64,000 bases of DNA. Source: Vibrio pacinii DSM 19139 (GTDB lineage: Bacteria > Pseudomonadota > Gammaproteobacteria > Enterobacterales > Vibrionaceae). The stretch is taken from assembly GCF_000711795.1 (NCBI RefSeq), contig NZ_JONH01000013.1, positions 124,001 through 188,000 of the forward strand, in the 5' to 3' direction. The translations under genes were made by a program, and so were the position numbers. Shown piece after piece: positions 30,754-37,104 of the stretch (position 1 is its first letter; every line of letters begins with the position of its first letter). Below the pieces are notes generated by a model, which saw nothing but the letters and a program-made list of their open reading frames with translations, searched no databases and was not told the DNA's origin.

Positions 30754-30757
30754 AGTT

Positions 30758-30777
30758 CCCCCCCCCCCCCCCCCCCC
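30758..30777 (-). repeat. Homopolymer G20 tract between lacZ stop and alpha-galactosidase start
   Basis: Twenty consecutive C on the plus strand (G on the coding strand) lie between the lacZ TAA (30778-30780) and the four bases before the alpha-galactosidase ATG. It occupies the ribosome binding site. Such tracts are prone to slippage in replication and to miscounting in sequencing. Confidence 0.85.
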
Positions 30778-33934
<3,157 letters not shown>

Positions 33935-33946
33935 CGAAAGATAGGG

Positions 33947-33986
33947 CGCTCCATTGATTGGCAAAGTGGCGCCAATCAATAGAGCG
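33947..33986 (-). other. Long stabilising hairpin after the sugar-binding-protein gene
   Basis: Sixteen base pairs, CGCTCTATTGATTGGC with GCCAATCAATGGAGCG on the minus strand (one G-U pair), surround an 8-base loop. It lies 24 bases after the binding-protein stop codon. It could protect the upstream mRNA 3' end, giving more binding protein than permease or LacZ. Confidence 0.6.
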
Positions 33987-34009: not shown

Positions 34010-35236
34010 TTACTTAAAAGTACGCGCACTGACCTTATCCAATTGCTTCAAGATTTTATCGATACGATCTGGGTGAACCATGAATTGTTGAAAACCTTTC
34101 ATGCCTTCTTTCGCCATCGCAGGATCCGTATCGCGATCGTAGAACTGCGCGGTGCCCGAAGCGGTATTTAGCATCTCAACGCCTTTATTGAGGAACGGAT
34201 CATCCTTCACTTCCGCTTTGTTGTTGGTCGGTATTTGCAACATCATCTGGTTGATAAGCTGCTGATTTTCTTTACGAGCAACAAAAGCGAGGAATTTACG
34301 TGCGTCGTCTTTGTTCTTCGCTTTGGCAGGAATATGGATGGTATCCATCGGTGCGTCTTCGGCCTTAGGAATACTTGAGTCGATAATCGGGAACTGGAAG
34401 AAACCCATTTTATCTTTAACATCATCAGGGAAGTTAGCCGTTAGGAAGTTACCCATCAAATACATCGCCGCTTGACCGTTGTAGAGGAAAGGTTGCGCTT
34501 CTTGCCACGAGTATGAAGCGTGGTTTTCGAGGAAATAACCAGGTTCAACTAGTTGCGCCCAGTTAGCAAAGGTCTTTTTTACCCGCTCATCGCTATAAGG
34601 CACTTTGCCATCCATCAACTGAATATGGAAATCTAAGCCATTGGTGCGCATGTTGATGTAATCGAACCACCCTGCAGCCGTCCATAAGTATTTAGTACCT
34701 ATCGTAAACGGCGTTACCCCGTTGTCCTTTAACGTTGCAGAGGCTTTTAGTAGCTCATCCCAAGTTTTGGGCTCACCAATACCATATTTATCGAAAATAT
34801 CTTTTCGGTAGTAGATGCCCCATTGGTAGTAGGTATAAGGCACACCATATTGCTTATCTTTAATCGTCATCGCAGGCTTGGCAGAGGTAAAGTCATCGTA
34901 CATACCATTTTGTTGCCAAATGTCGGTAACATCTTCAAACAAGCCTCGATCAACAAAGGTTTTCATGCGGTTTCCAGCATACCAAAACACCACATCTGGT
35001 GGCGAAGTCACTAACCAGTTACGAATAGTGGTCTTATATGCTTCGTGATCATAGAGATTGTACTTAACGGTAATATCTGGGTATTCCTGCTCGAATCGTT
35101 TAACGATTTCACCCCATGCTTGTTTTGGCGCTGGATCAGAGGCGTCAGAGTTGATCACCAACGTCCCCGCCCATGAAGCGGTTGATAGTGTTGCCCCGAG
35201 AATCGCGGTAGCAGCGAGATGTTTCACGTATTTCAT
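34010..35236 (-). CDS. ABC sugar transporter, substrate-binding protein
   Basis: A 408-residue periplasmic binding protein of the family 1 (maltose/oligosaccharide) type. The signal peptide spans about 23 residues and ends LSTASWA. The mature protein has a VINSDASDPAPKQAWGEIVKRFEQEYPDI start, a PDVVFWYAGNRM segment and QYGVPYTYYQWGIYYRKDIFDKYG. I start at 35236 after AAGGA; an upstream ATG at 35293 would bury the signal peptide. It sits after the two permease genes and before lacZ, so a galactoside ligand is the best guess. Confidence 0.9.
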   Translation of the reverse strand: MKYVKHLAATAILGATLSTASWAGTLVINSDASDPAPKQAWGEIVKRFEQEYPDITVKYNLYDHEAYKTTIRNWLVTSPPDVVFWYAGNRMKTFVDRGLFEDVTDIWQQNGMYDDFTSAKPAMTIKDKQYGVPYTYYQWGIYYRKDIFDKYGIGEPKTWDELLKASATLKDNGVTPFTIGTKYLWTAAGWFDYINMRTNGLDFHIQLMDGKVPYSDERVKKTFANWAQLVEPGYFLENHASYSWQEAQPFLYNGQAAMYLMGNFLTANFPDDVKDKMGFFQFPIIDSSIPKAEDAPMDTIHIPAKAKNKDDARKFLAFVARKENQQLINQMMLQIPTNNKAEVKDDPFLNKGVEMLNTASGTAQFYDRDTDPAMAKEGMKGFQQFMVHPDRIDKILKQLDKVSARTFK

Positions 35237-35332
35237 ATTCAGGTCCTTGTTAGTGAGCCAAAGCTCATGGGTCCGATTGTTATATTTATTCACTTACCTA
35301 AATAGCGAACCAAAGAAAGCCCGCAATATTGA

Positions 35333-36184
35333 TTAACCTTTCGTTGCACCAAGTGTTAAGCCCGCAATAAAGTGACGCTGCATAGTAAAAAACAGTACCA
35401 CTGGTGGAATCGCAGCAACAATGGCGCCAGCTGACATCAACTGCCATGAAGCAAGCCATTGCCCTTGCAGTGAACTTAGGCCAGCCGTGACAGGGCGCAC
35501 TTCATCACTTTGCACCAACACCAAAGCCCAAAAAAAGTCGTTCCAAATAAAAGTAAACACCAGTACCGCCAATGCGGCTAATGCAGGGCGCACTAAAGGC
35601 AAGACCACATGCCAGAAAATTTTCCATTCACTGACACCTTCAACACGTGCGGCCTCAATCAGAGCATCGGGGATGCCAACAATAAAATTGCGCATAAATA
35701 AGGTGCAAAAACCCGCCTGAAAAGCGATATGGAAAAAGATCAACGCCAAGTGGGTATCATAAAGACCAAAACTGATGGTCAAGTCGCGCACGGGGATCAT
35801 TAAAATTTGGAACGGGACAAAGTTACCCGCGATAAACATGGCAAAGATCCAGACATTAGCCTTGAAGTTATATTTGGCTAATGCAAAGCCTGCCAGAGTC
35901 GACAATGCGACAGCGCCAGCCACCGCTGGTAGGGTGATAATCAAGCTATTGATTAGGTATTGGCCCATGGCTGTCGACATGAAAACTTGAGTGTAGTTTT
36001 CAATTAACTGAATCTCGCTCGGCCACCCCCAATAGTTACCAGTGTTAATGTCTTCCATACCTCGGATCGAGGTCATCATTACTGCGATCAGTGGCAGTAG
36101 CCACATCACAATAGAAATCGGTAATGCTACTCGATAGCTGATATTGGCAAAGCGTCCCGCTTTTTGAATCGGTTGTGGGTACAT
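35333..36184 (-). CDS. ABC sugar transporter, permease (MalG type)
   Basis: A 283-residue inner-membrane permease with six hydrophobic segments. The cytoplasmic EAA loop that contacts the ATPase is EAARVEGVSEWKIFWHVVLPL near residue 190. The C-terminus (FIAGLTLGATKG) is typical of the MalG/UgpE class. Its ATG overlaps the stop codon of the preceding permease gene by one base, so the two are translated together. The ATPase partner is probably the divergent gene at 37445. Confidence 0.92.
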   Translation of the reverse strand: MYPQPIQKAGRFANISYRVALPISIVMWLLPLIAVMMTSIRGMEDINTGNYWGWPSEIQLIENYTQVFMSTAMGQYLINSLIITLPAVAGAVALSTLAGFALAKYNFKANVWIFAMFIAGNFVPFQILMIPVRDLTISFGLYDTHLALIFFHIAFQAGFCTLFMRNFIVGIPDALIEAARVEGVSEWKIFWHVVLPLVRPALAALAVLVFTFIWNDFFWALVLVQSDEVRPVTAGLSSLQGQWLASWQLMSAGAIVAAIPPVVLFFTMQRHFIAGLTLGATKG

Positions 36185-37104
36185 TATTTCTCACTCCTCA
36201 ACATACGCCATAAGAAGTACGCGATATACACGTCCATGATGAGGAACAACACAACGGAAACTGCCGCGCCATAGCCCATTCGATAGTTGAAAATTGACTC
36301 TTCGTACATTTGATAAGCCAATACCGTTGAACTGCCCCAAGGCCCGCCTGCGGTCATCGTGGCAACAAGATCAAAGGACCGCAGCGCGCCAATTACAGTA
36401 ACAACAATGGCAATAAAGGTTGCCGGACGAAGTTGTGGGATCACCACATACCAGAGCATGCGCCATTTCTTGGCGCCATCAAGACGTGCAGCTTCGAGCT
36501 GTTCAGGATCGAGATTATTCAACCCTGTTAAGTACAAGATCATGCAGTAGGAGATTTGTGGCCAAAGGCCTGCGGCAATAATACCGTAAGTGACATAGTC
36601 TTCATCGGCGAGAATCGAAATCGGCTCAATGCCGAAGGCGCCAAGTACTATGTTAAACAAACCAAATGAGGGATCGTAAAACCAAGCGAATACTAAGCCT
36701 ACCACCACCTGTGAGATAACAAACGGGAAAAAGAATAACGACTTAACGACACGAATGCCTTTCACCTGCTGATTCAAGAACAGCGCTATCGCAAGTCCAA
36801 TCGGTTGTGCAAGCATAAAAAATACCAACCATAGGGTGTTATTTTTTAGTGAGGTATAGAAAGCGTCTGAATCAAACAGCTCACGATAGTTTCCCAACCC
36901 GACCCACACTTTTTCTCCGAGTCCATCCCATTGATAGAAACTAAGCCAGATACTATCCATAATTGGGTAGATAACGTAAACCGAAAAAATGAGCATTGCA
37001 GGGGCCAAAAATAGCCATGGCGAAAGCTTAGCACTTACCCTTGCCTTACGCCTTGCCGAAGGAAGGCGGTTTTCTGGGTATATCGTTTTCACAGATTGCT
37101 CCAT
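36184..37104 (-). CDS. ABC sugar transporter, permease (MalF type)
   Basis: A 306-residue inner-membrane permease with six hydrophobic segments after a basic N-terminus, and the EAA loop EAARLDGAKKWRMLWYVVIPQLRP near residue 210. It is the UgpA/MalF-type partner of the permease that overlaps its stop codon. It is the first gene of the importer-lacZ-alpha-galactosidase unit. The control region shared with the divergent ATPase gene carries a GalR-like operator. Confidence 0.92.
   Translation of the reverse strand: MEQSVKTIYPENRLPSARRKARVSAKLSPWLFLAPAMLIFSVYVIYPIMDSIWLSFYQWDGLGEKVWVGLGNYRELFDSDAFYTSLKNNTLWLVFFMLAQPIGLAIALFLNQQVKGIRVVKSLFFFPFVISQVVVGLVFAWFYDPSFGLFNIVLGAFGIEPISILADEDYVTYGIIAAGLWPQISYCMILYLTGLNNLDPEQLEAARLDGAKKWRMLWYVVIPQLRPATFIAIVVTVIGALRSFDLVATMTAGGPWGSSTVLAYQMYEESIFNYRMGYGAAVSVVLFLIMDVYIAYFLWRMLRSEK

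Follow-up and report, generated by a model that had tools for sequence, protein, structure and literature searches.

The alpha-galactosidase gene of family GH36 in Vibrio pacinii DSM 19139 lies immediately downstream of lacZ, on the minus strand of the 64,000-nucleotide stretch of contig NZ_JONH01000013.1 (positions 124,001 to 188,000) that was analysed here; this whole stretch is called the window below, and positions are counted from its first letter. The lacZ stop codon and the GH36 ATG are separated by 24 nucleotides (nt), which on the coding strand consist of 20 consecutive G followed by AACT (Table 1). The lacZ coding sequence closes with ...AAG TTT TAA, the G tract follows without any intervening base, and AACT leads into the start codon at 30753-30751. 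This is letter for letter what an earlier sequence-only reading of the stretch had described. Both genes are open and intact. Since 24 nt make eight codons, a tract of 20 puts the lacZ TAA and GH36 in the same frame, and the GH36 open frame comprises 712 residues, versus 704 when counted from the ATG. That ATG is the likely start, because alignments with the closest GH36 orthologues start at residue 1, where these too have ATG. The tract is interior to a contig of 194,927 bases in a draft genome (4,304,676 bases in 53 contigs). As sequence, the run of 20 G (G20) is real; its exact length depends on the 53-contig assembly, and an artefact may be possible above all for the length.

Related vibrios suggest what the tract stands in for. 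From a comparison set of one genome per species, we screened 139 loci (L009-L147; L and G numbers with three digits denote loci and genomes) and kept those in which the lacZ match reached residue 1025, the GH36 match began at residue 6 or earlier, both genes lay on the same strand and the gap between them was under 150 nt; GH36 matches below 600 bits were excluded from the orthologue set. Eighteen rows passed, representing 11 distinct junctions including that of the window. In none of the other ten do more than three G stand in a row between stop and start (longest runs, 0-3). The seven closest junctions (GH36 identity 69-78%) carry ordinary Shine-Dalgarno (SD) sequences, and their stop-to-start distances are 10-36 nt, compared with 24 nt in the window. 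Examples are TAA-GGAACTAACG-ATG in V. sinaloensis, TAA-AGGAATAATAAA-ATG in V. europaeus and TAA-GGAGTCAAGTTG-ATG in genome G177, which is also the best match in the genus (~81% identical) over a region that we take from its sequences to be galK-galT. Two further junctions (L138, L147) have no gap at all (0 nt), their SD being located within lacZ, and V. hannami (L098) has one of 68 nt. Many relatives have lacZ without an adjoining GH36 gene; the two are adjacent in 9 of 30 loci, window included. Judging from a comparison of these junctions, the tract appears to occupy the position of the SD GG core in the relatives, and TAA-G20-AACT-ATG would be a junction of the V. sinaloensis type in which two G have expanded and four bases before the ATG are missing. 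Among the genomes compared, the tract is private to this one.

A run of this length is far beyond chance. In 100 dinucleotide-preserving shuffles of the window, nine-base G or C matches occurred 0.12 times on average and twice at most, while the actual window holds 12 overlapping matches, all of them within the G20 run. Under a first-order Markov model, runs of at least 20 are expected ~1.6e-7 times for C and 2e-8 times for G on each strand of 4.3 Mb. With an expectation this low, base composition cannot account for the tract, which must be due to slippage or to an artefact. No second G/C run of at least 12 exists in the source genome (all G12 matches belong to this tract); the next longest is one G9, and lengths of 10 or more are confined to the tract. 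If the assembly is right, a G20 tract would be long enough to slip often, as a contingency locus does. The sequence-only reading had said that long G runs slip, and this agrees with the rise in insertion and deletion (indel) rate with homopolymer length described for Vibrio mutS mutants in excerpts of PMC5854121. In the present genome mutS is intact (840 of 840 profile positions). A genome-wide mutator, or an assembly generally rich in poly-G, was considered and rejected, given that the tract is the sole run of at least 12 and that mutS, the one repair gene checked, is intact. The lone other G9 (L178, contig 1, 112956-112964) sits within an open frame of ~345 codons, where a frameshift may be phase-variable.

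It is misleading to say, as had been proposed, that the tract replaces the ribosome binding site (RBS) and that no other SD exists. Poly-G pairs with CCUCC, with one G-U pair, and can meet the anti-SD in many registers; TAAGGGG is also present at the lacZ stop. With the letters of the 16S tail (the anti-SD) as we take them to be, the pairing computed for the natural sequence of the tract amounts to -10.9 kcal/mol. The paired end then lies 4-12 nt from the ATG, and nine pairing windows in the tract are within 0.5 kcal of the best. The values in relatives range from -5.3 to -8.7 kcal/mol (computed for the seven closest of the ten other junctions). In this calculation, which excludes competition from G-quadruplex folding, the tract pairs with the 16S 3' tail at a normal distance from the start, and it can probably still serve as an SD. 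Because so many registers are near-equal, the gain or loss of a few G should leave the SD-to-ATG spacing unchanged; on the model, what changes of length should alter is the stop-to-start distance and the stability of a G-quadruplex. The earlier suggestion that changes of tract length alter the distance for translational coupling is partly supported: the stop-to-start distance would change, and coupling is plausible at 24 nt.

The G-quadruplex (G4), which the sequence-only reading had also raised, is a strong prediction for the RNA. From -70 to +50, the predicted folding energy is -81.5 kcal/mol when G4 is allowed and -27.7 kcal/mol when it is not, and the G4 predicted in the tract has four layers. 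No G4 was predicted in any of the five relatives folded, a subset of the seven used for the pairing. According to excerpts of PMC11087576, a G4 placed 20 bp before the start lowered translation in work cited there, whereas the paper itself saw translation increase with G4s located far upstream of the SD. Since a G4 near the start lowers translation, free messenger RNA (mRNA) carrying the G20 tract may be poorly translated.

On balance, we lean towards reading the tract as the slippage-expanded GG core of the alpha-galactosidase SD, still usable, and a young, tolerated expansion in one lineage. The RBS would probably have been stretched rather than lost. An SD of the form TAAGGA..., placed directly after or overlapping the lacZ stop as in relatives, would have become TAAG20AACT. 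A few consecutive G would pair with CCUCC while AACT and some of the G act as the spacer, so that a normally spaced SD would always be available. In free mRNA the tract would tend to be masked by G4 folding, and initiation would lean on ribosomes finishing lacZ. The tract starts immediately behind the lacZ stop, so a ribosome completing lacZ would have to melt it, and could then restart at the ATG 24 nt past the stop; initiation at GH36 would in this way be coupled to translation of lacZ. The tract is expected to be hypermutable, and changes of length would move output gradually, via G4 stability and stop-to-start distance, rather than on and off.

Several points weigh against the expanded-SD reading. 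The tract is known from one assembly of one strain, and among the 27 Vibrio genomes that have a run of 14 G or longer, at least 7 look like assembly faults. The nearest junctions differ by at least 23% in protein, which means that the ancestral SD has to be inferred across a large distance. The energies are model values and the G4 energy model is crude; a G4 could leave the gene nearly silent, the SD then being unusable. The fuller proposal, that a slipping G-homopolymer SD is G4-gated by ribosomes finishing lacZ and that its length is a heritable rheostat of the two-enzyme ratio, seems to us decidedly unlikely.

A sequencing or assembly artefact is the rival that survives best. The true junction would then be an ordinary short SD, with the run, or much of its length, spurious; the assembly is a draft, and a length of exactly 20 is a round number. 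To these points the genus adds its own record. We searched 227 Vibrio genomes, the source genome included, and the 27 with a run of at least 14 G were represented by 30 inspected loci (some second and third tracts fell outside this sample). Fault-like cases comprise runs at contig ends (G118, G172, G173 and G174), a run beside N (G105) and runs of 42-288 G (G116 and G104); one run, at L162, stands at the end of the retrieved stretch. However, at least ten assemblies of five contigs or fewer also carry such runs (G003, G007, G010, G017, G018, G098, G128, G212, G214 and G250). Long G runs are thus not only draft errors, and the genus likely holds both real ones and artefacts. The V. pacinii run itself lies well inside its contig; its flanking genes are intact, as are the stop and start codons, and their adjacency recurs in relatives. 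It also hits the SD core, so small a target that, in our judgement, a random fault would seldom strike it, and the genome has no second run of 12 or more. Overall, we regard an artefact as rather unlikely. Among the inspected loci, L151 (G104) has runs of 82 and 288 G in one open frame of ~1004 codons within the retrieved stretch; with 2031 overlapping G14 matches, G104 is most likely showing an artefact of assembly.

A genus-wide habit of poly-G SDs was also considered, and rejected. Ten G followed after 2-10 nt by ATG occur in 51 of the 227 genomes, versus 34 for the reversed pattern, a weak excess; ATG and GTA also differ in frequency. A frame of at least 99 amino acids (aa) starts from such an ATG at 6 of 30 loci (L191-L220), the window included, namely L191, L195, L197, L205, L212 and L216; of these, L197 lies within a longer open frame (431 open codons upstream). 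At L212, in the two-contig genome G138, G10-AT-ATG precedes an open reading frame (ORF) of 126 aa. At L166, in the two-contig genome G214, G14 stands directly before the ATG of a 231-aa ORF; this locus came from the G14 search, not from the G10-ATG set. Both ORFs lack a Pfam match at 1e-4, so even they may not be genes. With a weak excess and few loci resembling gene starts, the survey points at most to sporadic SD expansions rather than to a system. At L205 (G115), G10 lies 0-2 nt before the ATG of a 183-aa frame that matches glutathione peroxidase (PF00255); it may be internal to a longer frame, with 54 open codons upstream.

Phase variation is a fair conjecture. Here GH36 would be a phase-variable or tunable metabolic gene, the tract being kept by selection and its length setting output via the coupling distance or the G4. 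A length of 20 far exceeds that of the mutable Vibrio tracts reported in the excerpted text of PMC5854121 (7-11), and leader G tracts are described as tuning translation in tlpB (PMC8295292) and espR (PMC11898584), excerpts of the latter source also giving glpK as a metabolic gene that is phase-variable. The comparison with orthologous loci in other vibrios, which the sequence-only reading had proposed as a check, speaks against a maintained switch, however, as the tract is present at none of the ten other distinct junctions. In addition, the multiple SD registers should buffer changes of length, and with mutS intact slippage would be partly repaired. We consider a selected switch unlikely.

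The remaining explanations fare worse. It is very improbable that the tract is a small RNA (sRNA) target of the RepG/tlpB kind, in which a C/U-rich sRNA loop would pair with it and control GH36; the argument is one of analogy with that system, as excerpted from PMC8295292. Apart from the finding that the genome lacks a further G/C run of at least 10, no sRNA search was made. Phase variation through the length of a promoter spacer is a known phenomenon, and the tract as such a spacer was rejected as having scarcely any probability: over the 120 bases upstream, no pair of hexamers matches at more than 7 of 12 positions, and a -10 element after the tract would overlap the ATG. A consensus scan found no promoter-like minus-strand site between lacZ and GH36, the nearest being at 33406 and 29489. 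Readthrough of the stop, in which the tract would supply the linker of a LacZ-(Gly)7-Thr-GH36 fusion, would suit the eight in-frame codons, but one length in three is in frame by chance and TAA is normally an efficient stop, and we give it practically no credence.

The surrounding genes are listed in Table 1. On the minus strand the order is sugar ABC (ATP-binding cassette) transporter, lacZ and GH36, and we infer that the transporter genes share one transcript with lacZ. In the alpha-galactosidase, the GH36 C-terminal domain scores just under its cut-off. A 17-pair stem-loop on the minus strand (33947-33986) lies between the solute-binding protein gene and lacZ; it is perhaps a terminator, or a processing or attenuation site inside the operon.

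Table 1. Features of the lacZ-GH36 junction and its neighbours, in window positions
Feature	Position	Strand	Remarks
G20 tract (exactly 20 C on the plus strand)	30758..30777	-	SD core position; putative expanded SD
AACT, spacer from tract to GH36 start codon	30754..30757	-	
lacZ stop codon TAA, directly 5' of tract	30778..30780	-	in frame with GH36 at length 20
GH36 alpha-galactosidase, 704 aa	28639..30753	-	Melibiase PF02065, GH36 N-terminal domain PF16875
lacZ, GH2 beta-galactosidase, 1033 aa	30778..33879	-	mechanical ORF call
Sugar ABC transporter: solute-binding protein and two permeases	34010..37104	-	upstream of lacZ

Leader G tracts that tune translation are already known, from tlpB and espR. 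In Helicobacter pylori, the leader of tlpB-hp0102 contains a G-repeat acted on by the sRNA RepG, and the length of the tract sets output gradually (excerpts of PMC8295292). It resembles the window tract in being a homopolymeric G tract in a bacterial mRNA, variable in the tlpB leader; it differs in being an sRNA target in a 5' untranslated region (UTR), with length variation shown, whereas the window tract lies on the SD between two genes. In the 5' UTR of Mycobacterium tuberculosis espR, one extra G in a poly-G tract raises translation, according to excerpts of PMC11898584; the window tract, in contrast, is in the SD position itself. The poly-G tract of Vibrio cholerae tcpH, with its frequent indels (cited in PMC5854121, seen in excerpt), is likewise a G/C homopolymer in Vibrio, but it lies in the coding frame and switches on and off by frameshift, whereas changes in the window tract alter no codon. 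Among the matches listed in the open-licence literature there is no natural SD-embedded G tract. Synthetic repeats in RBS spacers ('rbSSR') tune translation through repeat length near the RBS; they are engineered and stand between SD and ATG, whereas the window tract would be the SD itself. Neither repeats in RBS spacers nor phase variation of Vibrio galactosidases gave a match in the open-licence literature searched.

What would be new here is a G tract that is itself the SD, placed between two sugar-enzyme genes of one operon. Even as no more than a tolerated expansion, it illustrates how far slippage can carry an SD while perhaps leaving it usable. If it is real and variable, it would be a contingency tract acting as an SD, one that shifts the proportion of two enzymes while leaving every codon as it is; G-quadruplex gating by the terminating ribosome could then be tested in a natural setting.
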